The notes under the pieces were generated by a model, which did no database searches, was not told where the DNA came from, and worked only from the letters and a program-made list of their open reading frames with translations. Both the position numbers and the translations under genes were made by a program. Source: Candidatus Aminicenantota bacterium (GTDB lineage: Bacteria; Acidobacteriota; Aminicenantia; UBA2199). Taken from it: a DNA stretch of 33,949 nucleotides. Of the stretch, positions 1 through 14,005 are shown piece by piece. The stretch covers positions 1-33,949 of the forward strand of contig JALHTJ010000225.1 of NCBI GenBank assembly GCA_022865785.1, given 5' to 3'. Numbering within the stretch: position 1 is the first letter of the stretch; the number at the start of each line of letters is the position of its first letter.

Positions 1-1
1 C

Positions 2-160
2 TTCGTCCGCAAAAAATTATCGGCCCTGGCCATGCCCCAGGAGATCGAGTTCGTGCCCGGCCTGCCCAAGACGCGCTCAGGCAAGATCATGCGCCGTGTG
101 CTGCGCGCCCAGGAGTGGGGCGAGGAGATCGGCGACATCTCGACTTTGGAGAACGATTGA
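2..160 (+). CDS. acs: Acetyl-CoA synthetase, C-terminal end (partial)
   Basis: The last 52 codons of an acetyl-CoA synthetase run in from the left edge. The enzyme activates acetate with ATP and CoA through an acetyl-adenylate. The visible part holds the conserved C-terminal motif [15 protein letters not shown], whose Lys in SGKIMRR is the catalytic lysine (the one acetylated by Pat/AcuA) in this family. The ending GDISTLEND matches the usual GDTSTLAD-type tail. The gene is intact to its stop as far as visible. Its 3' end is the left boundary of an A/T-rich island and is repeated twice inside that island. By hand alignment it differs from the copy at 4889-5047 at 19 of 159 bases. Confidence 0.93.
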
Positions 161-178
161 TCTAATGAAAAAAACGGA

Positions 179-199
179 GGGGGTGGAATTCGGACCCCC
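179..199 (+). terminator. G/C hairpin behind acs (possible terminator)
   Basis: GGGGGT at 179-184 can pair with ACCCCC at 194-199 around a 9-base loop, 18 bases after the acs stop. A T-rich stretch follows only some 20 bases later, so an intrinsic terminator is possible but not clear. Confidence 0.3.
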
Positions 200-424
200 C
201 TGACCAACGGCCTCCCAGTTTATTTTATTAGGTTCCCTTTAAATAAGTACTTATATTCAAAGCAACGAAGGCATTAAAATAAAACGCATCTCCAGAATAG
301 TGGCCGATCAAGACTATATTTTTTTTCAATGCAAAAAATATATAAATTCATTCATCTCATGAATCCGGTATTGCCAAAAATAACCGTTAATAAACCGACT
401 TGAGTTTTAAATAATATATTTCAA

Positions 425-508
425 CCCTGGCAGCCTACCCAATAAAGAATCATCTTTACTGGGTAGACGACAGCACCTCTCACCCCCATTTAAATTAGGG
501 GGCCAGGG
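425..508 (-). ncRNA. 84-base three-way-junction structured element
   Basis: An outer stem CCCTGGC (425-431) with GCCAGGG (502-508) encloses two hairpins. The first is a 14-bp stem with one G-T-type mismatch (435-448 with 453-466, loop ATCA). The second is a C5/G5 hairpin (483-487 with 498-502, competing with the outer stem for its last base). It starts 10 bases after the stop of the minus-strand Ntn-hydrolase gene. It may be the transcript's terminator or 3' structured end, or a separate small RNA; the strand is inferred from the neighbours. The rest of the gap 161-518 holds only the hairpin at 179-199, an ATAAGTACTTAT palindrome at 243-254, and a small ATTCAT/ATGAAT hairpin at 350-364. Confidence 0.4.
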
Positions 509-518
509 AGTTGCCAAA

Positions 519-1337
519 TTAAATTGTTGTATCAATCGACTGTTCTTTTGCATAACTTTTTCTCTTTCTAATTCTTCCAGAACATATTTCAAAATTTCTA
601 TTTCTCCATTCTATTACATCAATATTTTCTGAAAAAGAAATACGCATTCCATTGTAGTATCTGTTTCGTTTATGGAGAATTCCAAAGGCAAATCCACTTT
701 TCTCCGGCTTTCTATACAGACCAACTAGTTGAGCTACCCCCCCACTTTTTTTATCTGTCATTTTCTCTAATACAACAGAAAAGGTGTGAAAAACATTTCT
801 TGTAGTATTTGCATTTAAACCTTTTATACGCCCCCCATACTCTCTGTTAAAATCTGAAGCACCGGAACCCATAACATCAATTAAACCTGATATGACAGGA
901 AGTTTTAAAGCCTTAACTTGATAACTTTTATCCTTTTTCCAAATAAATTTGTATGCATAAAAGTCTGGATATCCCTTTTCAATAATATCTCTACAAATGT
1001 AAAGTATTTCAAATGAATTTAAAATTTCACTTTTGGGATAATGTTTAATTTCTTCAATTAACTTTTTTTTAAATTTATCAAATCTAGTTCTAGGGCCATC
1101 ATTTTCATCATATAAGATTTTTTTGTCAATCAATTCAATAATGGAAGGAATAACCATTGAAGGAAATAAAACATCACCACAAAATCCAATTATGTCGGGG
1201 AATTCATTTGAAAAAAAAGTTTTCCGGCAACTATCATAAAAATTTAGATTTCCCCAAGAAACCCTACTATCGCTAGCAATATATGCGGATGTATACCCAT
1301 GAGTATCTTTACCTATCCATGATACAACCAGTGTCAT
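519..1337 (-). CDS. HslV/proteasome-beta-like Ntn hydrolase
   Basis: The 272-residue protein begins MTLVVSW, resembling the MTTIVSV start of HslV, where Met removal exposes the catalytic Thr. The proteasome-fold landmarks follow in order: Thr2 (nucleophile candidate), Asp23 in ASDSRVS, Lys39 in CRKTF (HslV Asp17/Lys33 equivalents), Gly54 in GFCGD, and GSG at 156-158. It is longer than HslV (about 175) through a middle insert and a basic C-terminal tail. No ATPase partner (HslU, ClpX, AAA) lies nearby. The start ATG follows a weak GGGTGAT site. It is the last gene of the minus-strand run RT-TIR-Ntn. The fold call is good; the substrate and a protease role are inferred. Base composition is markedly A/T-rich. 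Confidence 0.6.
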   Translation of the reverse strand: MTLVVSWIGKDTHGYTSAYIASDSRVSWGNLNFYDSCRKTFFSNEFPDIIGFCGDVLFPSMVIPSIIELIDKKILYDENDGPRTRFDKFKKKLIEEIKHYPKSEILNSFEILYICRDIIEKGYPDFYAYKFIWKKDKSYQVKALKLPVISGLIDVMGSGASDFNREYGGRIKGLNANTTRNVFHTFSVVLEKMTDKKSGGVAQLVGLYRKPEKSGFAFGILHKRNRYYNGMRISFSENIDVIEWRNRNFEICSGRIRKRKSYAKEQSIDTTI

Positions 1338-1451
1338 ATATCACCCACTCTTTTATAATTTTTTTATACTAATAACATTCGACACACAGAAGCCCCCAAA
1401 CGATTTTCCATCTTGCTTGAGTACAATTTCCACTTCAAATAAACTCCATTA

Positions 1452-2564
1452 CTATAATTCTGAGTCATCTATAATTCCAGCTCGCTCAAGTAACTCAAGT
1501 ATACGTTCGATCCTTACTGGCGGATCAGTATGCAAAGGGAAAACAACTCGGATTGAAACCGGAAATGACATCTTAGTCGGAAATACAGGCATGGCTCCTG
1601 GAGTAACACGAAGTTCAGTCAATGCAAATAATGCATTCTCATATTCATAAAGATTTCCATGCTTATCTGAAATTTGAACTCCAAAGGCTGAAAGTCTTGA
1701 TGAAATTTTATAATTTGCAGTAAGTGCCCGAATCTCTTTGCGTAGAATAATAGAAAACCAAAAATATTCTGGGGATTGATTATAAATGGCATTTACTAAA
1801 GCAGGTAATAACAGTAATATTTTATCCAGAACAATAGGATCTACCGTTATCGAAACACTTGATGAGTTTTTATTTATATTTCGGTTGAGTTTCAATAAAA
1901 TGCCACTCCCGTGCATCGTTACTTCATCAATCAGCGAAATCGTTATATTTGCGTTCTTGAATACCTCTTTGATCGCCTCTTCTGGACTTGCGATTGCTTT
2001 AAGACTAGATCCATCAGGCGCTTGGTTGATCACAGTAGGGAAGTCAATTTCGATTCGGTCGACAAATCGGAGAGTTGATGAGAATGGGACGAGATGCATA
2101 GCATTTAGACTAGTCAGTTCAAGATAATCTTTCTCGTTAAAATCTTCGCGGAAATTAAGTTGATATTGTTGGTTTATGACAGCAATGAGATTATTGAGCC
2201 CATCGTGTGAACGAATATTAAAACCTTGTAGCAGACTCAGAGGCGGCCGAAGAGTTTCAATTGATGCGGAATTGATCCCAATCGGAATCACGCGGACACC
2301 GCGTGAATATGCATATCCAGATTCAAAATAGAGCCAAGAGGAGGTAACTGATGCTGGCGATACGGCAGTAAACATTATAGTCGCAGCTTGCAGTGCAGAC
2401 TCAATACCATGAATCCAATTTGTCCCAAAAGGAATGCTTTGTCCATCACTTGATAAAAAAAACTTCACAACACCAGCGGTTCGAGCATCGAGTTTACGTT
2501 TCAACAATTCTAGATATGCCACGTCCTTGGAAGAATGGCTTATAAATACAGTCGGTTTTTTCAT
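1452..2564 (-). CDS. TIR-domain protein (putative NAD-cleaving effector)
   Basis: The 370-residue protein has an N-terminal TIR domain (about residues 4-140). It shows the opening VFISHSSKD, a FFLSSDG box 2-like loop, and the SSWLYFESGYA segment whose Glu81 fits the catalytic glutamate of NAD-hydrolysing bacterial TIR domains (W-x3-E). The C-terminal 220 residues match no family I recognise and may sense a trigger or oligomerise. Bacterial TIR proteins with this Glu usually deplete NAD or make cyclic ADP-ribose signals in anti-phage defense. The gene has its own promoter-like sequence in the 170-base gap behind the reverse transcriptase, and the Ntn hydrolase follows 114 bases downstream. The ribosome site (GGAA) is weak. 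Function is inferred from the TIR family. Confidence 0.82.
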   Translation of the reverse strand: MKKPTVFISHSSKDVAYLELLKRKLDARTAGVVKFFLSSDGQSIPFGTNWIHGIESALQAATIMFTAVSPASVTSSWLYFESGYAYSRGVRVIPIGINSASIETLRPPLSLLQGFNIRSHDGLNNLIAVINQQYQLNFREDFNEKDYLELTSLNAMHLVPFSSTLRFVDRIEIDFPTVINQAPDGSSLKAIASPEEAIKEVFKNANITISLIDEVTMHGSGILLKLNRNINKNSSSVSITVDPIVLDKILLLLPALVNAIYNQSPEYFWFSIILRKEIRALTANYKISSRLSAFGVQISDKHGNLYEYENALFALTELRVTPGAMPVFPTKMSFPVSIRVVFPLHTDPPVRIERILELLERAGIIDDSEL

Positions 2565-2615
2565 GCTTGTTCCATAATCATATGAATAATCACTTTGCTC
2601 ATTACTTACTTTAAA

Positions 2616-2645
2616 ATTATGCGCCTAAGCCTGACATACTGTCAA
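2616..2645 (-). promoter_or_regulatory. Promoter of the TIR gene
   Basis: On the minus strand TTGACA (2645-2640), an 18-base spacer and CATAAT (2621-2616) give a near-consensus sigma-70-type promoter, with a start expected about 45 bases before the TIR ATG. It implies TIR and Ntn can be transcribed independently of the reverse transcriptase gene. Confidence 0.55.
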
Positions 2646-2655
2646 GTTTGGCTTA
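2626..2655. promoter_or_regulatory. Nested inverted repeat over the TIR -35 box
   Basis: TAAGCC (2626-2631) pairs with GGCTTA (2650-2655), and inside it TGACA (2632-2636) pairs with TGTCA (2640-2644). The inner repeat overlaps the -35 hexamer, so a repressor operator is a reasonable reading. No regulator gene is in this cassette. Confidence 0.4.
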
Positions 2656-2734
2656 AACCCATTTAGTTCCTCACTTTTCCAACGCGAATATTCAGCTGCG
2701 TTGCGTTACTCAATCCCCTTATGCTTTTTATCAT

Positions 2735-4834
2735 TCATGGCATAAGCGCCTCAAAATCCGTATATGTAGTGCGAAGCCGCCCCACAAACTGATCCCGTTC
2801 CCTGACCTTTAGGTACTGGGACTGCCCTGCTGTCTTTTTCTCGTAGGGATGAGACACAGGGAGAGCATTCCGGCGAGCGTTCATCACACGGAAGCAGTCT
2901 CCAATAGTCGGGCATTTTTTGGAAAATGATTTGCTCGCATCCAGCGTAACACCAAAATCAACTAATTGCCCATTCTTGTCGATAATTGTGCAAGCAGCCG
3001 GGTGTTTTATTGTTGCCAGATGTCTCTGAAGTGCTAAGAATATGGTCTGGTTGAAGGAGTTCTGACAAGCGAGCCAAAACGAACGACCGCTGGCGAAAGT
3101 CGCCTCGGCTTGTTTCAGAAGGCCTAGCGCGTGGACATATTCATTTAAAAGCAACTTGCACCATGACTTTACGGGCGGTGTACCATAGCGTGCAAACAGA
3201 ATCTCAGCGATTGGATCTACTTTAGCTCGTGGCGCAGAGATTACGCCCAACTCGTTAAGTGTGTTGACTACTTGGGTTGGCAGATCTTTGACGGTTAAGT
3301 TGAAGCTCGATGGTGTCAGTCCGCGCTCATGCAACATGGAGCAGACTGACAGCCCAGGCTCCGGGGTGCTACGACTAAGGAACATCCCGACGACCTCTCC
3401 CTTGCCAAAGGCATTGTTCGGCAAAACTGGCCCCAGAAAAGATTGAAGTAGAGGTGGCTGATACTTCAAGAATCTGCTTAGGTGAGCCAATGTTATTTCA
3501 TCCGATACACACAAGAAATGACAGGCCCCCCAGAGTTCAACAAAGTTTTCTGCCGACTTGTTCTTCGCGATATTTATAGCCCGGCTGATTAGTGAGTTCA
3601 GATTCTGAGCTGTCATTGATCGTGGATCTTGGCAATACTTGGCTAGAACGTGCCACGCTTCTCCACGGATGTATGGATATGGATTCTTAGTGACAAGTTC
3701 TAGGCATAATCGCTCAATTGGTTTTCGATAATCGAACTTACCAAGATAGACAAAGAAGGCGTCTGCATGCTCGGGATGCCTTGGGATGAGACGCAGTACG
3801 AGGTTGAGTAGATAGCTGTCTGGTTCTGCTCTATATAAACTGTAACGAAGGCGCGTTTTGTCTGTAACCTGAATTGGTTTCCCTCCAACCGCAGAGAGAA
3901 ATGTTTTCCTGGCTTGATTTTTCCCTATTTTCTCTCCGCCTATTCCTTCATGCTGTGGATCCGATATACTTGGAAGCATCCCTAATGCCTCTTGAACATT
4001 CTTAGCACACTTAATGGCAAACTTGCCAGTTTGCGGAATTAAACCCCGTTCACGGCAAAGCCTTTCGAGCTCAATGAGATAAATGCGAACTTCATCCTCT
4101 GTAGCCCCGAACAGTCGAACATCATCAACGTACCGTGTATAGCCACGTCGTTTCTGGAGTTTAAGATCGATAGGTAGAAGAAAACATTCCGCAAGGAAGT
4201 CCGACGCAAGAGGTCCTTGTGGCAATCCATGGGCATGGTCGGAAGCTGCGTGAGCAGAACTCCAAGTTCGCAAACACATCCCAATCCAATTCAGATCACT
4301 GTTTGACGTACGCGGATATATAGTCCGTAATAAAAGCTCATGGGAGATAGTATCGTAAAAGGCCGCTAAGTCGAAATCGCCGACCCATTTCATACCTCCC
4401 TCAAATTGTTTCTTGATACGCCCCTGAAATGCTCTGTAAGTCTCTCGCCAACTCCGAAAGAAAAAAATGCTATCGGATTTTTCCAGGATATTGCTGAAGA
4501 CGACTTTAAATTGGAGAGGAACACGAAACTTTTGCAGCTGTTTGGCAGCCAGATTCGCGAATGCTTGGAGTACTATCTGGTCCTCAACATTCAGCAAAGT
4601 GAGCGGTCGATGGAGGCCAGATGATTTTGGGACAAAGATACGATCAGGATGCCGAGGCTTGAATGTACCGCCAAGTAATCTCTGGCGAAGATCCTTCAGG
4701 TTAGCATCATGGGCAACCTCATATGCATAATAAATGGATCGATAAAGCCTTTTGTATTGGTGATTACTACCGGTTGTGATCCGTCGCCATGCAAGCTCAA
4801 GATTCTGCTTACTTGCGAGCATAGCAATTTTCAT
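2735..4834 (-). CDS. Defense-type reverse transcriptase (UG/Abi-like)
   Basis: The 699-residue protein carries a reverse transcriptase domain in its first 300 residues. RPLTLLNVEDQIVLQAF (77-92) is the finger motif. DFDLAAFYDTISH (153-165) is motif A with catalytic Asp155, GLPQGPLASDF (203-213) is motif B, and RYVDD (234-238) is motif C. The remaining 400 residues are predicted mostly helical, with a repeat-like stretch around 330-450, and have no maturase (X) or HNH domain. That excludes a group II intron enzyme and resembles the UG/Abi (DRT) lineages with helical C-termini. No msr/msd-like RNA or DGR template/variable repeat pair is seen next to it. It stands first in a minus-strand run before the TIR and Ntn genes. 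The exact RT class cannot be assigned by eye. Confidence 0.85.
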   Translation of the reverse strand: MKIAMLASKQNLELAWRRITTGSNHQYKRLYRSIYYAYEVAHDANLKDLRQRLLGGTFKPRHPDRIFVPKSSGLHRPLTLLNVEDQIVLQAFANLAAKQLQKFRVPLQFKVVFSNILEKSDSIFFFRSWRETYRAFQGRIKKQFEGGMKWVGDFDLAAFYDTISHELLLRTIYPRTSNSDLNWIGMCLRTWSSAHAASDHAHGLPQGPLASDFLAECFLLPIDLKLQKRRGYTRYVDDVRLFGATEDEVRIYLIELERLCRERGLIPQTGKFAIKCAKNVQEALGMLPSISDPQHEGIGGEKIGKNQARKTFLSAVGGKPIQVTDKTRLRYSLYRAEPDSYLLNLVLRLIPRHPEHADAFFVYLGKFDYRKPIERLCLELVTKNPYPYIRGEAWHVLAKYCQDPRSMTAQNLNSLISRAINIAKNKSAENFVELWGACHFLCVSDEITLAHLSRFLKYQPPLLQSFLGPVLPNNAFGKGEVVGMFLSRSTPEPGLSVCSMLHERGLTPSSFNLTVKDLPTQVVNTLNELGVISAPRAKVDPIAEILFARYGTPPVKSWCKLLLNEYVHALGLLKQAEATFASGRSFWLACQNSFNQTIFLALQRHLATIKHPAACTIIDKNGQLVDFGVTLDASKSFSKKCPTIGDCFRVMNARRNALPVSHPYEKKTAGQSQYLKVRERDQFVGRLRTTYTDFEALMP

Positions 4835-4840
4835 TAACCC

Positions 4841-4869
4841 ATCTTATTCCCTTGCTACAATGTTTTCAA
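4841..4869 (-). promoter_or_regulatory. Promoter of the reverse transcriptase gene
   Basis: TTGAAA (4869-4864), 17 bases and TAAGAT (4846-4841) precede the ATG at 4834 by only 6 bases. Transcription would start about at the A of the ATG, so the message may be leaderless. Confidence 0.4.
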
Positions 4870-4888
4870 TAAATTCGACCACATGAAC

Positions 4889-5047
<159 letters not shown>

Positions 5048-5461
5048 AGGGTGACTACCATCAATCAGTCCGCGATACGGACCAGCCGGCCCTAGCTATT
5101 CGCCCTCGTAATTACGTGTTGTGGTGATGTCACAGGCAAGTCTCTCTTCTCCAAGAGCAGGTCGGTGTGCACCCCCGACCACCAGGAGGCGGCGAGGATA
5201 GAAATGTGAACTATTCATGAAAAACTGGCGCCGACAGACTGGTCGTCTGGTCATCATATAATGTTATTACCTCGAAAAATCACTAAGTTGTAGTCCCGCC
5301 CATCTGCGCTTTGAATCAGTATTGAAGCGTATAAGGTTCACACTTGTCAACTTAACCAATTAAACATTTCAAATTATTAACAACACTCCAGCGGACCATA
5401 ACTCTTCAATACCTTGTTTGGTGGCCCCAGGTTGATGTGAATAGACATATCAAACAACTTT
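5048..5461. other. Intergenic region between acs tail 2 and lpxC-like gene
   Basis: I see no convincing gene in these 414 bases. There is a GTCCG/CGGAC hairpin at 5068-5082 shortly after the acs tail, and a GGTCGG/CCGACC inverted repeat near 5160-5180. The right half is A/T-rich and lies behind the minus-strand lpxC-like gene. Confidence 0.4.
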
Positions 5462-6367
5462 TTATCCACTTACATCAAGCTCCTTCGAAATGAATCGAAC
5501 CAGTTCATGATTGAGCGAATGGCTCGGTCGAAAAACATTCAGACTTCCTTGGAGCGGCATCCGAAGCAAAGCTAAATCCCCGAGCAAATCGAGAATTTTA
5601 TGTCTAATTTCCTCATCATTGCCCCGTGAAGTAGTTAGCCGTCCATCTCTGTAAACAATCATATTCGAGTCGGTAATTCGTTCCATTTGGTGAATTTCAA
5701 ATCCGGGGAGTTTCTTACGTGTCGTTTCTTCATCTTTAAACGGACCGAAAGCAAAAGTCCTCGCCCAAGCTAAATGAAGACAAAACATCGTAGGCGTGTG
5801 CCAATAACGAAGTTGCTGCACACCAATCGGATGTGGAAAATCAATTGCCGCAGAGACTACCAAACCAGGGTCAGGTCTTACATAAATAGACGACTCACCG
5901 AGCTTAATATCGAAAGGTCTTTCAACTATTATACGCTGTTGTGATGTACCAGGCTGGGCAACAATCTCGGCCCGAGCGAGTATATCTGCAAAAGGAAGGG
6001 CACTACCATCGAGGAAAGGTATCAAGGCTTCAGCATTAGTTACCACAATTAAGTTAGATATACATAGACCATGTACCGCGGCGAGAAGGTGCTCGGGTGT
6101 TTTTATTGCAACGGAATCGGATGCACGAAGAGTAGTCGTATGTTGACCATGCTCTTTGTCAATTGGAATGAGACGGTCATACGTCGCCGGCACTGGATCT
6201 CGAAGCCCACTAACGTGAAAAACTATTCCGGTTCCGGGATCAGCAGGTCGGAATAAGACTGTTCCCTCCCCATCAATGAATGCAGCTTTCCCTTTAAGTG
6301 AGCGAATCTCTGCAATAGTGGTTTGAGGCTCATCCACCTGGCGGAGAGCTACACATCGTTTTATCAT
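5462..6367 (-). CDS. lpxC: LpxC-like UDP-3-O-acyl-GlcNAc deacetylase
   Basis: The 301-residue protein has the length and all visible signature residues of LpxC, the zinc deacetylase of the committed step of lipid A synthesis. They are TPEHLL (Glu92 catalytic, His93 zinc ligand), FLDGSALPF (118-126), ARTFAF (202-207), RHKILDLLGDL with zinc ligands His256 and Asp260, and SHSLN with His283. It is probably catalytically competent. Its place is odd: it lies on the minus strand inside a defense-type cassette with A/T-rich sequence, not in a lipid A or cell-division cluster, and no ribosome site is clear. It may be an imported second LpxC, perhaps giving inhibitor tolerance, or a relative with another substrate. 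Whether the host has another lpxC cannot be seen here. Confidence 0.85.
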   Translation of the reverse strand: MIKRCVALRQVDEPQTTIAEIRSLKGKAAFIDGEGTVLFRPADPGTGIVFHVSGLRDPVPATYDRLIPIDKEHGQHTTTLRASDSVAIKTPEHLLAAVHGLCISNLIVVTNAEALIPFLDGSALPFADILARAEIVAQPGTSQQRIIVERPFDIKLGESSIYVRPDPGLVVSAAIDFPHPIGVQQLRYWHTPTMFCLHLAWARTFAFGPFKDEETTRKKLPGFEIHQMERITDSNMIVYRDGRLTTSRGNDEEIRHKILDLLGDLALLRMPLQGSLNVFRPSHSLNHELVRFISKELDVSG

Positions 6368-6482
6368 GCGCTACGCCATACGTGCTTTGAGCATCCTCCG
6401 ACTCTTACCACCAAACGTACAACCTCAGTTGCGCCGCGAAGTGTTGTCCGCCACATGCTATTATTAACTCTTTTGCAATTCA

Positions 6483-6935
6483 TTACTCTACCTTAAATTG
6501 TTTCTTGCTTTTTATAATCCCCTCAAGATTCCTGATTTCAGCTCTCAGTTTTTCAAAATCTTTTTTGCTTTCGGCATATTCAATTTTATTTTCATTAACT
6601 ATATCAGATGTTATCTTTGCTTTTAAATTCACATTTTCTATTTGAAATCCAAGTGATTTTATTCTTTCCTCTTGGTATTTTAAAGTTGTAATACTTTGAT
6701 TATTATCAAAAATTTTAAATAGAATTGGAACAATGAGTGCTATTGCAGCAACTATTGCCATTATTCGTGTAAGGAAAATCATTTTTTTTGCTAATTTCTC
6801 ATAACTTAATGTTGCCCTTGCAGTCAATACTGCACTAACAAATGGCATTTCGCTTGGAATCGTACTTTGATTTAAATGATCTACGATAGATTCTATGTCA
6901 TCATTCAGATATTGATGTGCTGTTTTCCTAGCCAT
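6483..6935 (-). CDS. Small one-TM coiled-coil protein
   Basis: The 150-residue protein has one membrane segment (about residues 52-75, FLTRIMAIVAAIALIVPILF) after a polar N-terminus. A charged, heptad-like coiled coil follows to the Lys-rich end. A GGAG ribosome site stands before the ATG. TATAAT on the minus strand (7013-7008) suggests its own promoter. I recognise no family. It lies directly behind the CD-NTase/SLATT pair and could be an accessory membrane component, but nothing in the sequence proves it. Confidence 0.6.
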   Translation of the reverse strand: MARKTAHQYLNDDIESIVDHLNQSTIPSEMPFVSAVLTARATLSYEKLAKKMIFLTRIMAIVAAIALIVPILFKIFDNNQSITTLKYQEERIKSLGFQIENVNLKAKITSDIVNENKIEYAESKKDFEKLRAEIRNLEGIIKSKKQFKVE

Positions 6936-7090
6936 ATTTTATCTCCTCGCTTAAAGTTTATTAAAATCATCTCAAATCCCTTGAGCATCCTTAAACCTAG
7001 ATCCGTCATTATAACCGTCAATTCAAGACCCAATTCTAATGTTGAATATGAACATCGCTACGTTTCCCAGCGTATGATTCCACCAACTCG

Positions 7091-7672
7091 TTAGCCTCTC
7101 TTCAATTCCTTCGGAAGAAACGCATCGATCTCATCATCAGAAAAGGTCATATCTGCCAGTTGTTTGAGAGCTTCTTGAGCCTTCTTGTATGCCTGATATG
7201 TCGTACTGGGAGCTCCAGAGTAAACATTGTGCAATTCCTCAAGAATTGCATCTCGTTCCTTTTGCAGAGATTCTATTGGCTTTTCCCCCAAGCGAAGGTC
7301 AGTGATTAGGGATAGATACTTTTCCCGGATGATCCACAAATCAGCGCCTGCTTGCCGGTGTTTCTGAGATAATTCGCCCAAATCATAATTCTTCGTATAG
7401 GCATTGAGAACAAGCAAGGTAGTCGATATGACTATCCCCAAGACAGCACCGACTTGCCCACCTCCAAAAACAGCCGCGATGAACCCGCCAGTTGTCAGGG
7501 CTGCAAGGATGATCTGCCATAATTTGATCTGCGAGAGCCGAGAAAGGAGAATGTCGGCGCATTTCTCGTGGGTCTTGTGGGAGTAAACCACGCGCCCAAA
7601 GCACTCACGCAACTGGCCTTCAAGAATCGCCCGCGAGTTTGGCGTATCGTTAGTCTGGGAATGAGGTTCCAA
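7091..7672 (-). CDS. SLATT-domain two-TM effector
   Basis: The 193-residue protein fits the SLATT family: a conserved amphipathic start LRECFGRVVYSHKTHEKCAD (21-40), two membrane helices (about 52-70 and 74-92), and a charged cytoplasmic helical tail. SLATT proteins are predicted pore-forming effectors linked to nucleotide-second-messenger synthases. I chose a TTG start at 7672 because GGAGG lies 6-7 bases before it. The open frame continues upstream to 7873, but that part overlaps the CD-NTase in another frame and does not look like SLATT sequence. The gene therefore overlaps the CD-NTase end by 23 bases, indicating translational coupling and a joint function: the cyclase makes the signal and SLATT permeabilises the membrane. 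Confidence 0.78.
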   Translation of the reverse strand: MEPHSQTNDTPNSRAILEGQLRECFGRVVYSHKTHEKCADILLSRLSQIKLWQIILAALTTGGFIAAVFGGGQVGAVLGIVISTTLLVLNAYTKNYDLGELSQKHRQAGADLWIIREKYLSLITDLRLGEKPIESLQKERDAILEELHNVYSGAPSTTYQAYKKAQEALKQLADMTFSDDEIDAFLPKELKRG

Positions 7673-8531
7673 AGATCTCCCTCCATTTCTGTATTGCCGA
7701 CCACTCCTGTTTTGGAGAGGCCGTTTCATGAGCGATAGCCTCACAAGAGATGTTATAGCAGCGTGTAGCTTTCCATTGAAAAAGGCCCTTTCCATAGACA
7801 CACTGTTCACTCCCTGGGGCTTTCCAGTACTCCTGCTCTTTGTCCTGATCAGCCATAAATTGAAAGAAGTCACGGCACATTAAATCGTAGTAGAAGTAGG
7901 ATTTGTCCTTGTATTGCCATCCATCTATGAACTGATAGGCTAGTGTATCAATCAGAAGACCGCCAATAGGAACAACCCATTTCTTCTTCCAGGCCCGCAT
8001 CATTCGGCATAGAGGCACCAGATTCCCATTGCAGGCGTTGTTCCTAGTTCGAATGGCTTCGATCTCTGGTTTCGGGTTTGTAGTCTTCCACGATCCGCCG
8101 CCGTGTGAATCGGGATAGGTGAAACTTTCTAATTTATTTGTGAACACTGGTACTATCTCAAAGGAAATCTCATCATCGAACGCAATGATCACGACCTGTC
8201 CATCTGCGCCGATTCGTGAGGACGAGTATGTCTTTTGCATTGAACTACGTACAGCTTGGAGGAGTGCCGATTGCCCATTTCCCTCGTGTATGTCGTACTG
8301 GTAGTAGAGATCGGATGGCAACTCAAAGATCATATCCAGATCGCTAAAGCCTTGGATGGCAGTGTTCCGCCCATAGGACCCAACGTAGAGGCTGTGGGAG
8401 GTGTCAGAGGTAGTATCCCAGAAGTCCGTATTGAGTCGCTGGGTTATGGATTTATAACGGGAGGAGATTGTTCCGCCATCCTGCACTTGGATGTTTGCAC
8501 AAAAGTCGCTAAACCATTCTCCCAGTCCCAT
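7650..8531 (-). CDS. CD-NTase (SMODS-type cyclic oligonucleotide synthase)
   Basis: This 293-residue nucleotidyltransferase has GSYGRNTAIQGFSDLDM (51-67), with Gly51-Ser52 and the metal-binding pair Asp64/Asp66. A third acid lies in SFEIVPVF (about Glu125). A helical C-terminal half follows with the KPEIEAIRTRN and CRMMRAWKKKW segments typical of SMODS enzymes. Such enzymes make cyclic di- or trinucleotides on phage infection in CBASS systems. An AGGAGA ribosome site precedes the ATG. The overlapping SLATT gene is the likely effector, giving a short (type I-like) CBASS with no Cap2/Cap3 or HORMA/TRIP13 gene in view. The product nucleotide cannot be told from the sequence. Confidence 0.88.
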   Translation of the reverse strand: MGLGEWFSDFCANIQVQDGGTISSRYKSITQRLNTDFWDTTSDTSHSLYVGSYGRNTAIQGFSDLDMIFELPSDLYYQYDIHEGNGQSALLQAVRSSMQKTYSSSRIGADGQVVIIAFDDEISFEIVPVFTNKLESFTYPDSHGGGSWKTTNPKPEIEAIRTRNNACNGNLVPLCRMMRAWKKKWVVPIGGLLIDTLAYQFIDGWQYKDKSYFYYDLMCRDFFQFMADQDKEQEYWKAPGSEQCVYGKGLFQWKATRCYNISCEAIAHETASPKQEWSAIQKWREIFGTSFPD

Positions 8532-8578
8532 CTATTCTCTCCTGAGCCTATACTAACATAATTATTAATTAAAAACCA

Positions 8579-9154
8579 TTATCGTTTCAACTCCACTCTG
8601 TTCCGCATTGCATGTGTAAGTTCTTGAAGTACAACAGAAAATTCTGCAATACTTTTTACGGGAAGATTGATGGAAGGACCATGAACTACTTCGTTCCGAA
8701 CTGCACGTAATCGTGTGACGGCTTTTGCCTCATCATCTTTCAGTATTCCTTCTCTTTTCAAACCTTCAATCAATTGAGGCATTTGAAGTGGAACCCCTGG
8801 CTTTGCAATACCAATAGTCTCAGCGATTTTGGAAGCTTCCATCTCAAAAGGATGCCATGCTTCAAGAACTGCAGCGCGCGGCGACACTTCAGCAAGCGAT
8901 TTATAATATTCAATCTCATTTTTATGTTGCATGGAATTTTCAAGAAATACTTTCTGTGTTGTAGTTGATTCGATCTCAGCCTTCGCTTTTGCAACCTGAC
9001 TTTCGAATTCAAGCTCAATATTTTTTATTCGTAAACGTTTTAAATCGGGAAGGATCTGATTCAATGTACGGCGAAGCATTAGGACAATAGCCACAGCAGC
9101 ACAAGGCCAAGCAATAGCTTTGAAGAGTGATGCGATAAAATTTAACCAATCCAT
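8579..9154 (-). CDS. Membrane-anchored HEPN-like protein
   Basis: The 191-residue protein has an N-terminal membrane helix (about 10-28), a coiled-coil linker (about 40-90) and a C-terminal helical domain ending in RLRAVRNEVVHG. RNEVVH (153-158) fits the R-x4-H motif of HEPN ribonucleases and of the DUF4145-like branch. The start at 9154 is chosen because GGAGG lies 5 bases upstream; an upstream TTG at 9202 has no such support. It lies 47 bases before the CD-NTase on the same strand, so it could be its first operon partner. The HEPN call is by motif only; many such domains are non-catalytic. Confidence 0.62.
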   Translation of the reverse strand: MDWLNFIASLFKAIAWPCAAVAIVLMLRRTLNQILPDLKRLRIKNIELEFESQVAKAKAEIESTTTQKVFLENSMQHKNEIEYYKSLAEVSPRAAVLEAWHPFEMEASKIAETIGIAKPGVPLQMPQLIEGLKREGILKDDEAKAVTRLRAVRNEVVHGPSINLPVKSIAEFSVVLQELTHAMRNRVELKR

Positions 9155-9273
9155 TTCCACCTCCATAAAGCCAAATATTTGTAAACCTAAATTTAATTTC
9201 AATTCCTGTCACTAAAAACACCTTTTCTACTCATGGCATACAATGTTTAATTTCTTATTCCTCAACATTTTTT

Positions 9274-9303
9274 TGGGCGGGGCGAAGGGGGAATCGAACC
9301 CCC
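9274..9303 (-). other. tRNA T-arm/acceptor-like fragment (possible att remnant)
   Basis: On the minus strand GGGGG-TTCGATT-CCCCC (9303-9287) is a perfect T-arm with the invariant TTCRA loop, followed by a C/G-rich acceptor-like TTCGCCCC (9286-9279). No D-arm or anticodon arm is found upstream and no CCA is encoded, so it is not a complete tRNA. Such 3' tRNA or tmRNA ends are common integration scars. Confidence 0.45.
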
Positions 9304-9345
9304 TTGCGCTCGCTCCCATATCTAAATGGTTGATGTTCCACCGGT

Positions 9346-9441
9346 TCATGCATTCCCTTGTAGTATTGGAAACATGTCGCCAGACCGCCCCAGGAGCGCT
9401 GTCCCCGCCGCTACACAAATCAATAAGACATTTGATTTCAT
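9346..9441 (-). CDS. 31-residue membrane peptide ORF
   Basis: An ATG at 9441 with a full GGAGGT ribosome site 4 bases upstream opens a 31-codon frame. It encodes a Lys-Ser-Asn start, a hydrophobic stretch VLLICVAAGTALLG, and a short polar tail. It ends 43 bases before the tRNA-arm-like hairpin. The strong ribosome site is the main support. It may be a small toxin-like or membrane peptide, or chance. The remaining sequence of the gap 9155-9675 (9442-9675 and 9155-9273) shows no other gene. Confidence 0.35.
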   Translation of the reverse strand: MKSNVLLICVAAGTALLGRSGDMFPILQGNA

Positions 9442-9675
9442 ATTGACCTCCATTATCCACCTAATCTTGATAATGACTGATGCCATCACCCTGATTAAGA
9501 ACGAAGCCATCAACATGATTCCAAATAGGAATAACCATATCCCTTCGAAACTCCAACCTAAACATGGGCAACCTCAATACCTTGTTTACAATCATTGCAT
9601 AAATCCTTTTTAAAAGAAATGGAAAAATAGTTTTTCAACTTTCATTTATGGTTTTATCTAAATTTGTTGAAAAAA

Positions 9676-10368
9676 TCACAACCATCTTTCAGTCACCTCA
9701 ACGATCTTGCTGATTCCTAGATGACATTCATTTAAAAAATCTATTACCGAGAAGTTCTCACCAGTAAAATGAAAATCCACCCAGATTACTCTTTCTACTT
9801 TTTGTGAAGGATGTGGTACTGGCATTTGTGTTTTTGGGTCAACAGGTACACCTCCAATAAATACTCCCTGAGAAAACCTAACATTCCCTGGAATCCAATT
9901 AACCTCACCATTTGGAAACGATACATGAACCTGTTCGATTTCCGTCCTTGTTTGCGCTACCAAACTTCCATGCTTATTCTCATTGTTGATTTTATTAAAC
10001 ACTGCGAGCCAATGAAAGCCTTTATTATAAGGTTGTACACATTCCAAATATTCCCAAAAATCTGGCGAGGACCCTTTTAGCCCAGGAAACCATTTTGCAG
10101 TTTTAGTTTCAAAATCCATCTTTGTCGAAGAAATAGGAAAGTAGAACTTCGCTTTTGGATCAGCAGATAAGCAATATTTTTCTCGTATGTCATGAGCAAT
10201 ATAATCTAAAATTGACCTCAAGTTTTCGAAGAAGTTTTTAATATCAATAAGAAGACCAGTTGAGACCTGTTGCGCATTTAACGATATCGAATATGATTTT
10301 TTAATGGTTTTCAAATCGGATTCACACCTTAACAGAAGTGCTTTTATATCATTTTCACGTTTTCCCAT
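9676..10368 (-). CDS. Uncharacterised HEPN-like helical protein
   Basis: This 230-residue soluble protein has a helical first half with FFENLRSILDYIAHDIREKY (about 48-67) and a later INNENKHG stretch. Both are typical of a group of hypothetical proteins related to HEPN folds, followed by a beta-rich second half. I see no clear R-x4-H active site. The start has a GGAAGGA ribosome site. The gene overlaps the toxin gene end by 14 bases, so it is the third gene of the antitoxin-toxin unit. It might be a chaperone-like or effector partner. Function is unknown. Confidence 0.6.
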   Translation of the reverse strand: MGKRENDIKALLLRCESDLKTIKKSYSISLNAQQVSTGLLIDIKNFFENLRSILDYIAHDIREKYCLSADPKAKFYFPISSTKMDFETKTAKWFPGLKGSSPDFWEYLECVQPYNKGFHWLAVFNKINNENKHGSLVAQTRTEIEQVHVSFPNGEVNWIPGNVRFSQGVFIGGVPVDPKTQMPVPHPSQKVERVIWVDFHFTGENFSVIDFLNECHLGISKIVEVTERWL

Positions 10369-10756
10369 TGAATCCTTCCTTATAATTTTTAATCATTTTT
10401 TTTATTCTTGATAAATCAGCATTTTCCTTTATGCTTTTAAAATAGATTTCAATTAAATCAACGCGATTGGAATCTGAATAATAAGCATATACGACTCGTA
10501 TTCCTGACATTACCCCCTTACCTTTTAATGAGCGGCAGGCGAATTTTTTGGCCTTGAAAACAGGAGGGTGATCAAATCCAAGATCAGTCAGCCGGAAAAC
10601 CCCATTATTATCCATTTCCAGCTTGTGAAATGGGACCAATTGAGAGGAAATGAAGTTTTCCAGATCTTCTTTAAGAGTTGGAAACCTTTTTAAAAGCTTC
10701 TTCAGATCCTTTTTAAACTCAGGAAGTTCGACTATTTCTTTGAATTCATTCGTCAT
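10355..10756 (-). CDS. RelE/ParE-like toxin of a Panacea TA module
   Basis: The 133-residue protein (start at 10756 preferred; an in-frame ATG also exists at 10801 inside the antitoxin gene) has the RelE-like order. That order is an N-terminal helix pair ELPEFKKDLKKLLKRFPTLKEDLENF, then strands with CRSLKGKGVMSGIRVVYAYY and VDLIEIYFKS, and a basic C-terminal helix. It would act as a ribosome-dependent or free mRNA interferase, or a gyrase poison as in ParE. It overlaps the antitoxin gene by 11 bases, as is usual for such pairs. The fold is inferred from pattern and context. Confidence 0.65.
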   Translation of the reverse strand: MTNEFKEIVELPEFKKDLKKLLKRFPTLKEDLENFISSQLVPFHKLEMDNNGVFRLTDLGFDHPPVFKAKKFACRSLKGKGVMSGIRVVYAYYSDSNRVDLIEIYFKSIKENADLSRIKKMIKNYKEGFNGKT

Positions 10757-11531
10757 ATTGTCTGACTGAATAGGGTGCGGTTCGATAGAAAACGGCTTCA
10801 TAAGGGATTATTTTCCCTTTTTCAGTGGTCATCCAGGGGATATCGTTATGGGAATACTCACTAATCTGGGCGGCATTCCAATCGGCGAAACGACAAAGAA
10901 TCTTTTCAATCATGTTAATTTCATTGGCCATGAGTTTTGATAAATCGGCAGGCCGACGTGGAAGATATTTCGTCTGCGGAAAACTGAAGTATTCACTTTT
11001 TACTTTTTCGATTTCCTCTTCCTTGATCATACAGTCTACAATTTTCTTGAATTCCACTGGAGTCGGACCATGATGATTTTTCTGATAGGAGGCGCCGATC
11101 AATTGTTCTTCATACATCTCGTAATAGTCAAAATCGATAAAATAAAGGAGCTTGTATAATACCGTTTCGCCAACATTGGGCAACGAACCGACTCTGCCCA
11201 AAATATACAACAACACTTCCCTGAACTTTTCCAGATTCTTTTGCGGAACGGAAATTCTTATTTCATTTTCGATTGCCGTTGGAGATTTTTCCTTCACTGG
11301 TAGGCTGATTTGTGGTGTGATCTCCGGGTTGATCAAGTTTTCCAGGGTAATATTGAATTTTTTTGCAAGAAGCACCAATTCTTCGGCGGTGATCTTCCTC
11401 TCACCACTCTCGATCTGGGATATCGCTGATCGCGAAATACCGATAATGGCTGATAATTTATCTTGACTGATACCTTCAATCTCACGGAGCTGTTTAATAC
11501 GCTTCCCTAGATCGATATTCATTTTATTCAT
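10746..11531 (-). CDS. Xre-HTH plus Panacea (SocA/DUF4065) antitoxin
   Basis: The 261-residue protein has an N-terminal Xre helix-turn-helix (about 7-62: LGKRIKQLREIEGISQDKLS, SAISQIESGER). Then comes a linker and a Panacea domain (about 100-255) with its signature LLYFIDFDYYE and GASYQKNHHGPTP. Panacea domains neutralise very varied toxins, and here the fused HTH suggests the protein also represses its own promoter. A GAGGGA ribosome site precedes the ATG. A strong promoter with two direct repeats lies immediately upstream. It is first in the order antitoxin-toxin-HEPN-like. Confidence 0.87.
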   Translation of the reverse strand: MNKMNIDLGKRIKQLREIEGISQDKLSAIIGISRSAISQIESGERKITAEELVLLAKKFNITLENLINPEITPQISLPVKEKSPTAIENEIRISVPQKNLEKFREVLLYILGRVGSLPNVGETVLYKLLYFIDFDYYEMYEEQLIGASYQKNHHGPTPVEFKKIVDCMIKEEEIEKVKSEYFSFPQTKYLPRRPADLSKLMANEINMIEKILCRFADWNAAQISEYSHNDIPWMTTEKGKIIPYEAVFYRTAPYSVRQYDE

Positions 11532-11548
11532 ACTTCCCTCGCAACATT

Positions 11549-11577
11549 ATAATAACATTGGTTTGATTTTCTGTCAA
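11549..11577 (-). promoter_or_regulatory. Promoter of the Panacea TA operon
   Basis: TTGACA (11577-11572), a 17-base spacer and TATTAT (11554-11549) on the minus strand form a near-perfect sigma-70-type promoter 17 bases before the antitoxin ATG. Confidence 0.7.
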
Positions 11578-11599
11578 CTTCTTGTTTGATTTTCTATCA
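11561..11599. promoter_or_regulatory. Two direct operator repeats for the HTH antitoxin
   Basis: GTTTGATTTTCTGTCA (11561-11576) and GTTTGATTTTCTATCA (11584-11599) are 15/16 identical and 23 bases apart, about two helix turns. Each contains a TGAT-N5-ATCA-type dyad (one base off in the first). The first overlaps the -35 box. This fits autorepression by the Xre domain. Confidence 0.6.
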
Positions 11600-11639
11600 T
11601 TAATTTAGCCAATTTACTAGAGAGTCTTATGATGTTCAT

Positions 11640-11696
11640 TGCGCCCAGGAATAGGGCGAGGAGATCGGCGACACCTCGACCCTGGAGAACGACTGA
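11640..11696 (+). pseudogene. Third, decayed copy of the acs 3' end
   Basis: The last 19 codons of acs ([11 protein letters not shown] to the stop) reappear here. The Trp codon TGG has become TAG, Ile has become Thr and the first Arg has become Cys. By hand count it differs from 4889-5047 at 5 of 57 bases and from 2-160 at 7. It is the shortest and most damaged copy, fitting the oldest displaced acs end. It lies just upstream of the TA promoter and marks the right end of cassette 2. Confidence 0.82.
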
Positions 11697-11908
11697 GGCG
11701 TCACTCAGGAGATACTACCAGTAGTCTTGCATTTGTTTTTCCATTTTCAATCCGCTACAATGATTTCGGTATTAATGAGTGAGAAATTGAGAGATGAATT
11801 TTCCCGCATCCAAGCTTCCAAGCTTCCAAGGCCCATCAGCAGCATCTTAATTTTACCCAACTCAAGGATCGAGCGGATTGTTTGCTACGCGGAAAAGCGG
11901 AAGGCACT

Positions 11909-11968
11909 GGCCAACAACAGTATGCAGCAGACGGCGCTGTACGCCGCCGCTGATGCTGAATGTTGGAT
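11909..11968 (+). repeat. Integron attC-like recombination site
   Basis: The ends are GGCCAAC (11909-11915, 6 of 7 to RYYYAAC) and GTTGGAT (11962-11968, perfect GTTRRRY). Between them an imperfect foldback pairs CCAACA with TGTTGG, CAG (11918-11920) with CTG (11956-11958), CAGC (11925-11928) with GCTG (11949-11952), and CGGCG (11932-11936) with CGCCG (11942-11946). Unpaired bases separate these stems as in attC hairpins, and the 60-base length is typical. The remaining sequence 11697-11908 holds no supported gene, only a short TCCAAGCT tandem near 11814-11830. Confidence 0.68.
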
Positions 11969-11993
11969 GGCAATCGAATGCTAAGGAGATGTA

Positions 11994-13247
11994 ATGACAA
12001 GAGAAGAATGTCTATTTTGTGATGGGCATCTCGATACAACGTTAAGAGCCCACCTAGCTTCGATTGGCACCAAGGTTGATGCTATTCCCCGCGATCAGTT
12101 CATGAACGCCCAGGTGGAAGAAGTTATTGAGCACATATTATCCGAAATGATTGTTGAACCATTGGTCATCTATGAAGACCGTGCCGAAATGGAGCAACGT
12201 GAAACCAAGATAGATGTTAGTGAATGGCGGGACCGCAATCCATTTGGAGATCGCGGGCCGATCTATGTCGCGGGCGTTTCCGTCTCGGTATCGATCCCAT
12301 TTACTGGAGATTCCTCGCTTTGGAAGTTGAGACCCAACCAATGGCAGACTATCTATCCACATGCGCGCGTCCTTGCAGGCCGAAGCCAGAGCAATGGACA
12401 CATTCAGATCGATTTGGCCCAACCTGCTGATGAAACGAAAGAACGATTCAAGCAGCGCTTAGACGAAGAGCTGAAGACAATTCGGTTCTATGTGCAATCC
12501 CAGAATCAGCAAGTCAATTCCTTCAATGCCAACTTGCGTGGTCAAATCCTTGCGGTTGTCAATGCCCGGCGTGATCGGCTCAAGAAGCACGAGGGTTTGA
12601 ATGACTTCCTTGGCATTCCTTTAAAGCGAAAGGAAGGCGTTCCGGCAATTGAGCCAGTAAAGATCGAACGGAAATTAGTCCGCCCTTTACCGCCAACACC
12701 CAAGTCTGGGTACAAACCTGAACCCGGAATAACAGACGAAGATTACTCTTATATTCTCTCGGTGATTCGTCATGAAGGGCGAACCTTCGAAACGACACCT
12801 AAGACTTTCGCAGTTCATGAAGAGGAAGCGTTAAGAGACATACTTCTTGCGCACCTCAATGGACATTATAAAGGAGACGCCACGGGCGAGGCATTTCGCC
12901 GCAGCGGTAAAACCGATATTCGAATTGAAGATGGAAATAGGGCTGCCTTTGTGGCTGAGTGCAAGGTTTGGAAGGGACAGAAAGAACTTTCTCAAGCTAT
13001 CGATCAATTGCTAGGTTACTTGACCTGGCGTGATTGCAAGGCGGCGATCATCATTTTCAACAAGCACAACGCAAGATTCAGCAGAGTTATAGAAACTATC
13101 CCCACAGTTCTTGCAGCACACCGCTTCTTTAAACGCCGTATCGATGTTAAAGAGGCTGGCGAATGGCAATTCGATATGACCTCGGGGGAGGATGTAGGAA
13201 GACATGTCCGTGTCCATGTATTTGCGTTCAATCTATTCGTGGGATAG
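11994..13247 (+). CDS. PD-(D/E)XK nuclease-like cassette gene
   Basis: The 417-residue protein ends in a restriction-endonuclease-like domain (about 270-400). An acidic helix EEEAL lies near 278, GKTDI has Asp308, AECK has Glu322 and Lys324, and Gln338 sits in the next helix. This is the order of PD-(D/E)XK nucleases. The N-terminal 200 residues include a CLFCDGH start and a helical middle part (about 145-200), with no family I recognise. AAGGAGATGTA gives a good ribosome site. It lies between an attC-like site and half of another, so it reads as a single integron-type gene cassette. A DNA-cleaving defense function is likely but inferred. Confidence 0.72.
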   Translation: MTREECLFCDGHLDTTLRAHLASIGTKVDAIPRDQFMNAQVEEVIEHILSEMIVEPLVIYEDRAEMEQRETKIDVSEWRDRNPFGDRGPIYVAGVSVSVSIPFTGDSSLWKLRPNQWQTIYPHARVLAGRSQSNGHIQIDLAQPADETKERFKQRLDEELKTIRFYVQSQNQQVNSFNANLRGQILAVVNARRDRLKKHEGLNDFLGIPLKRKEGVPAIEPVKIERKLVRPLPPTPKSGYKPEPGITDEDYSYILSVIRHEGRTFETTPKTFAVHEEEALRDILLAHLNGHYKGDATGEAFRRSGKTDIRIEDGNRAAFVAECKVWKGQKELSQAIDQLLGYLTWRDCKAAIIIFNKHNARFSRVIETIPTVLAAHRFFKRRIDVKEAGEWQFDMTSGEDVGRHVRVHVFAFNLFVG

Positions 13248-13249
13248 AC

Positions 13250-13289
13250 GTCCAACAAAGCGCTGCAGGGGCCGGGGCAACAGCGGCCC
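13250..13289 (+). repeat. Truncated attC-like site
   Basis: GTCCAAC (13250-13256) is a perfect RYYYAAC end, 2 bases after the nuclease stop. It is followed by AAAGCGCTGCAG and a GGGCCG/CGGCCC hairpin (13269-13274 with 13284-13289). No GTTRRRY partner follows, so the site seems cut off where the core chromosome resumes at about 13,290. Confidence 0.5.
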
Positions 13290-13336
13290 GCTCCTGATCT
13301 AGCACCTTGAATGGGAAATCCTACCCGGTAGAGAAG

Positions 13337-14005
13337 TCACTCCAATAGTTTCTCGATCCTTCTTGCCGCGGCGAAGAGGTCGGGTTCCACCCAGTCGGCG
13401 GTGGTGAAGTCCTGGCCGCGGGTATAGTCGTTGGGTATGGCGATGACCGGGCAGCCGGCGGCCTTGCCGGCCAGGACGCCGTTGCGCGCGTCCTCGAGCA
13501 CGACGCACTCCCCCGGCGGCAGCCCCAGGCGGCGGCAGGCGATCAGGTAGATCTCGGGATCGGGTTTGCCGCGCTCGAGGCCGTCGGCCGTCTGCAGCAC
13601 GTCGAAATAACCGCGTATTCGCAGCGTGTCGAGCGCGATGTCGAGGAACTCCCGCTGGGCGCCGGTAGCGACCGCCAGCTTCAGCCTGCCGCTGAACGCA
13701 TCCAGTATCTCAATAAGGCCTGGCATGGCACCCAGGTCGTTTCTCATTTTTTCCAGCATCAGCCTGTTGCGCCAGGCGAAGAGATCCTCTGGTGAAGTTT
13801 CGATCCCCAGTATTTCGCGCAGCAGGCGCAGCGACTCAATGGGCTTGCGCCCCATCAGCGGCCAGAGCTGCTCATCGCGGATTTCTTTGCCATAGGCGGC
13901 GGCCATCTCGCGTTCGGCGGCGAAATAGAGGCGTTCGGAGTCGATCATCAGCCCGTCCATGTCGAATATCAAGGCCGACGGAGGCAAAAGCGGTTGGTTC
14001 AGCAT
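13337..14005 (-). CDS. HAD-family phosphatase / beta-phosphoglucomutase-like
   Basis: This 222-residue HAD hydrolase has all four motifs: DMDGLMIDSE (nucleophile Asp and the +2 acid), Thr in AVATGA, Lys in RGKPDPEIY, and EDARNGV. The helical cap after motif I places it in the beta-phosphoglucomutase-like subclass I. Substrates are small phosphate esters such as sugar phosphates and cannot be told apart here. It is the first core-type gene after the island and is GC-rich. A TATAAT box lies 5 bases before the ATG. Confidence 0.88.
   Translation of the reverse strand: MLNQPLLPPSALIFDMDGLMIDSERLYFAAEREMAAAYGKEIRDEQLWPLMGRKPIESLRLLREILGIETSPEDLFAWRNRLMLEKMRNDLGAMPGLIEILDAFSGRLKLAVATGAQREFLDIALDTLRIRGYFDVLQTADGLERGKPDPEIYLIACRRLGLPPGECVVLEDARNGVLAGKAAGCPVIAIPNDYTRGQDFTTADWVEPDLFAAARRIEKLLE

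Follow-up and report, generated by a model that had tools for sequence, protein, structure and literature searches.

Locus and catalytic core of the reverse transcriptase

The window, the whole 33,949-nucleotide stretch of DNA from a Candidatus Aminicenantota bacterium that was analysed, carries on its minus strand an intact open reading frame (positions 2735–4834) encoding a reverse transcriptase (RT) of 699 amino acids, matched by the PADLOC profile RT_UG19 over residues 3–695. The N-terminal part of the protein (residues ~1–290, positions 3965–4834) comprises the fingers and palm of the RT domain and contains RVT_1 (residues 101–277, E = 1.5e-14), the only Pfam domain found. The intact palm motifs mentioned in a preliminary description of this DNA were all located: the first catalytic aspartate, D155 (4370–4372), lies within the sequence DFDLAAFYD (residues 153–161), GLPQGP occupies residues 203–208, and YVDD, including the catalytic D237 and D238, occupies residues 235–238 (4121–4132). 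D155 and YVDD are invariant in four homologues. Two further regions are predicted in the remainder of the protein, a probable alpha-solenoid (residues ~300–550, positions 3185–3937) in the place of the aRep/HEAT-like domain of Class 1 DRTs and a C-terminal HEPN-like domain (residues ~555–699, positions 2738–3172).

The same description had proposed an Abi/UG-type enzyme devoid of maturase, retron and DGR components, and the searches bear this out. Pfam found RVT_1 alone and no maturase domain, and the group II intron RT model TIGR04416 scored 90 bits, below its cut-off of 300. A retron was rejected on the basis of the missing NAxxH and VTG signatures in the RT and the lack of any Rfam family match in the window. 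A DGR was rejected as well, with no template/variable repeat pair near the RT gene; within positions 1–14000, every long repeat is a duplicate of the acs 3' end.

A defence island at the 3' end of acs

The hotspot that holds the RT gene is flanked by acs and a gene for a HAD hydrolase, and within it the acs 3' end is repeated at positions 1–160, 4888–5047 and 11641–11696. The first copy (plus strand) forms the left boundary and includes a 141 bp overlap joining the window to contig C264, while the second (plus strand), 88% identical to the first, lies directly upstream of the RT gene and forms the right boundary of its cassette. Besides the RT, this first unit contains, both on the minus strand, genes for a TIR-domain protein (1452–2564; Pfam TIR_2, E = 7.3e-12) and for a protein of unknown family (519–1337) without matches in Pfam, PADLOC, NCBIfam or PHROG; the second unit holds a CBASS pair. 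The TIR gene has a promoter-like sequence, TTGACA-18-CATAAT (2645–2616, 11/12), and its product is probably an independent unit. The G+C content of the units is 31–48%, against 55% for the core.

Tandem acs 3' ends of 44–160 bp with different cargo between them are present in several genomes of the same genus (loci L044, L045, L046, L048 and L049). The copies mostly end at the stop codon, the cargo is defence or toxin–antitoxin-like, and no tyrosine integrase was detected among the cargo of the acs-tail hotspots examined. The region would appear to be an insertion hotspot, with the acs stop codon as the point of entry for cassettes.

Assignment to UG19 and distribution of relatives

The match to RT_UG19 is full-length, with an E-value of 5.9e-148 and 492 bits, and the runner-up PADLOC families scored far lower (UG21, 172 bits, E = 5.6e-51; UG32, 133 bits). 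UG19 was also the best PADLOC profile for the homologues. The UG19 model (PDLC03756) covers the same tail region, its positions 486–558 aligning to the C-terminal 139 amino acids, but it has 562 positions against 699 amino acids here, and some of the tail falls in columns that the model omits. In a phylogenetic tree of 21 RT domains, representing few UG groups and including AbiA only as short plasmid forms devoid of the HEPN tail, the RT domain and three other UG19 RT domains form one clade with a support of 100/100, separate from UG9, Drt8, AbiA, group II and RT-Cas1 enzymes. The profile match and this placement, which had been suggested as a check, rule out a new RT subclass, contrary to the earlier impression that the subclass was not evident by eye and might be novel. 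UG19 is a catalogued RT family, on which no study was found in the literature searched.

Homologues were identified in Nitrospirales (locus L002, ~70–71% identity), in Rhodanobacteraceae (L003, 68%) and, in two halves with 50% and 48% identity, in a further genome from the same phylum as the window (G088). No additional UG19 copy turned up in 142 genomes from the class to which the window belongs. The distance between these relatives and the lack of a second copy in the class suggest that the UG19 gene has spread horizontally. No relative with more than 60% identity was found on plasmids or in phages, and a search of viral contigs yielded nothing useful. Of the four UG19 genes, two are disrupted: the Nitrospirales copy contains an in-gene TGA stop (8010–8012 of its locus), and the G088 copy is interrupted by an insertion, called IS21-type by eye from its two transposition genes, with its halves on two contigs (L024, ~10800; L054, ~2210).

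Domain organisation of the C-terminal part

The C-terminus had been described as a single helical, repeat-like region of 400 residues. Its helical nature stands, but instead of one repeat array the models point to a solenoid followed by a distinct four-helix domain of ~145 residues. AlphaFold2 modelled the full-length protein poorly (mean pLDDT 45); residues 301–420 mostly reach a pLDDT of 60–85, with lower values beyond, and serial helices are predicted at ~305–550. In a Foldseek search the top matches were mostly HEAT/ARM solenoids, none of them significant. An alpha-solenoid at residues ~300–550 is probable according to these models. A HEAT-like helical domain characterises Class 1 DRTs, and those that have been studied synthesise DNA with no nucleic acid serving as template (PMC13174585); from the modelled solenoid, UG19 would be placed in this class.

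The final ~145 residues form a separate, highly conserved block in the homologues (L002, L003 and L054). This block contains the motif R655-NALPVS-H662 (2849–2872), which is identical at six of eight positions to RNSNPVSH, the HEPN motif of Lactococcus lactis AbiA (PMC11077055), and all four UG19 homologues retain its R, N, P, S and H. Among 323,558 words taken from all frames of the loci examined, 8-mers identical to the AbiA motif in at least six positions occurred in UG19 C-termini only. Given the length that we assume for AbiA, the two motifs are similarly placed near the C-terminus. The HEPN active-site motif is defined as R-x4-6-H at the end of helix 3, with N, D or H following R (PMC3710099). 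A model of the domain (mean pLDDT 57) has four main helices, the third of which spans domain residues 98–113 and includes R111; in this weak model the R-x6-H motif, with a polar residue after R, lies at the end of helix 3, as in HEPN domains. Pfam, PDB-sequence and Foldseek searches, carried out with 3–4 sequences and the weak model, revealed no likeness to a known HEPN fold or profile, and Pfam HEPN_AbiA_CTD did not match the UG19 tail. Taken together, a HEPN domain at residues ~555–699 is probable.

Comparison with Abi polymerases and proposed mechanism

The domain order of Lactococcus AbiA, RT followed by a helical and a HEPN part, is the same as that predicted for the UG19 protein. However, the RT domains of the two are not close, falling into separate clades with 100% support, and the 25 top-scoring PADLOC families for the window RT do not include AbiA. 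No full-length AbiA was available as a comparator in 297 genomes, where neither the AbiA-CTD nor the AbiA profile gave a match, and the HEPN motif is missing from the plasmid AbiA proteins found. AbiK and DRT4/UG15 combine an RT with a helical solenoid in a single gene, a layout that UG19 probably has as well, but a HEPN-like domain has not been described for them in the literature searched. The catalytic residues of AbiK, D163, D247 and D248 (PMC9508834), are spaced similarly to D155, D237 and D238, which lie 8–10 residues earlier in UG19. Sequence similarity to these enzymes is weak (AbiK, E = 2.9e-7; UG15, E = 0.005). AbiK and AbiA carry out untemplated polymerisation from a protein primer (PMC9508834, PMC11077055), and DRT4 is a single gene making random single-stranded DNA (PMC13213688).

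The anatomy of UG19 fits the set of Class 1, AbiK, AbiA and DRT4 enzymes; the most economical view is that it functions in a similar manner, and we consider it reasonably probable (about 60%) that UG19 is a single-gene antiphage polymerase of the Abi/DRT4 type with an AbiA-like three-part layout, making untemplated DNA from a protein primer. A role in phage defence would be consistent with both its family and its location, the gene being surrounded by TIR, CBASS and other defence genes in the window and neighbouring genes for a helicase and a methylase-like protein in G088. The RT domain and the solenoid would form a channel in which DNA is extended from a protein side chain, and an RNA template would not be used. 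Candidate primers are the invariant tyrosines Y27, Y35, Y36 and Y38; they lie in the N-terminal fingers, as does the AbiK primer Y44. Alternatively, priming might take place at S289 or elsewhere in the post-palm linker, where AbiA primes, although the priming tyrosine of AbiA has no conserved counterpart in this linker among the UG19 homologues. The HEPN-like domain could dimerise the enzyme, as in AbiA, where it holds the dimer and is required for polymerase activity (PMC11077055), and RNA binding or cleavage may be a further function. Upon phage infection, protein-linked DNA would accumulate or be stabilised, and phage replication or the cell itself would then stop.

With an AbiA-like layout and no RNA or protein partner in evidence, UG19 becomes a clear single-gene hypothesis. 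The HEPN tail has been named as the distinguishing feature of AbiA among the Abi polymerases (PMC11077055); if the domain is confirmed in UG19, a HEPN-like tail would occur in a second RT group, and the question of whether HEPN plays a structural or a catalytic role in RT-HEPN proteins could be addressed in a second lineage.

Search for partners and alternative explanations

The preliminary description had envisaged DNA synthesis either without a template or from a private RNA. Of the two, untemplated synthesis appears to be the best mechanism, while a private RNA was not found in the flanks. DRT10/UG17, DRT9 and DRT2 have a UG-type palm in common with UG19, but they require an adjacent ncRNA and, in the case of DRT10, also a SLATT protein, neither of which is evident as a partner here. 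Flank similarity among the four homologues was not above that of shuffled sequence. On its upstream side the RT gene lies only 53 bp from the acs-tail copy in the window and 15 bp from the preceding gene in G088, which leaves hardly any space for an RNA. Neither of the RNA locations put forward earlier held up: the segment 4835–5460 includes, at 4888–5047, the duplicate of the acs 3' end, for which reason an RNA partner in the upstream gap was rejected, and the segment 425–518 is two genes away from the RT and absent from other genomes of the genus. A very stable fold (z = −6.3) with a 16-bp hairpin is present at 422–515, just downstream of the gene at 519–1337; as an RNA partner it was rejected because it is remote and, within the genus, was found in this genome alone.

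An RNA-templated enzyme in the style of Class 2, with a small private RNA, encoded downstream (2565–2734) or elsewhere, as the template of the RT, is an unlikely alternative. It finds precedent in DRT2, DRT3a, DRT9 and DRT10, all of which are RNA-templated, and the downstream gap of 170 bp offers room for such an RNA. However, the predicted folding of this gap is unremarkable (z = −1.7); the gap is dissimilar among the four homologues, shrinks to 128 bp in G088 and contains the promoter-like sequence of the TIR gene, and a solenoid C-terminus is a trait of Class 1. As the coding DNA of the homologues is itself only 63–65% identical, a short, poorly conserved RNA could escape detection, and an RNA within the gene or one of up to ~128 nt downstream could still serve the enzyme.

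It is likewise doubtful that the HEPN-like domain acts as an RNase effector with the RT as its sensor or regulator, RNA cleavage being released when a phage stalls or alters DNA synthesis. The R-x6-H motif with N after R is the form tied to RNase activity (PMC3710099), and its R, N, P, S and H remain invariant while the overall identity drops to 48–55%. On the other hand, AbiA does not need its nearly identical motif for defence and showed no RNase activity (PMC11077055), and the acidic Ex3[KR] partner expected in helix 2 is not visible in the tail sequence. A combination of the two activities, in which UG19 would join an untemplated polymerase with an active HEPN RNase controlled by the covalent DNA product, seems more doubtful still; if true, it would represent a suicide switch that writes DNA and cuts RNA, distinct from AbiA, whose HEPN domain appears silent.

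Regarding protein partners, no gene recurs beside the UG19 RT across the four loci. The neighbours are a methyltransferase-like gene, small ORFs and intergenic sequence in the Nitrospirales locus, unrelated genes and an aldehyde dehydrogenase gene in the Rhodanobacteraceae locus, and genes for a large helicase and a methylase-like protein in G088; the TIR and CBASS/SLATT genes of the window, not being common to the homologous loci, were rejected as partners. That the RT product (DNA or RNA–DNA) activates the TIR NADase in one system is improbable, for although the TIR gene adjoins the RT gene on the same strand in the same acs-tail-bounded cassette and TIR-RT fusions are known among retrons (NCBIfam Retron_TIR model), it is not found beside the RT in the three homologous loci and has a strong promoter-like sequence of its own.

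Other genes of the island

The CBASS pair of the second unit (7091–8531) consists of a SMODS cyclase and a SLATT_4 effector with two transmembrane segments (SLATT gene, 7091–7873), encoded in overlapping frames. The adjacent gene at 8579–9202 is weakly similar to DUF4145 and HepT-like (HEPN) domains. The island also contains, at 5462–6367, a divergent LpxC gene (168 bits), the only lpxC found in the genome; in seven other genomes of the genus lpxC is located elsewhere and scores 243–262 bits, and the core copy may have been lost or left unassembled here. At the right end of the hotspot (11994–13247), a gene encodes the PADLOC candidate defence protein PDC-S54 (E = 2.8e-128).
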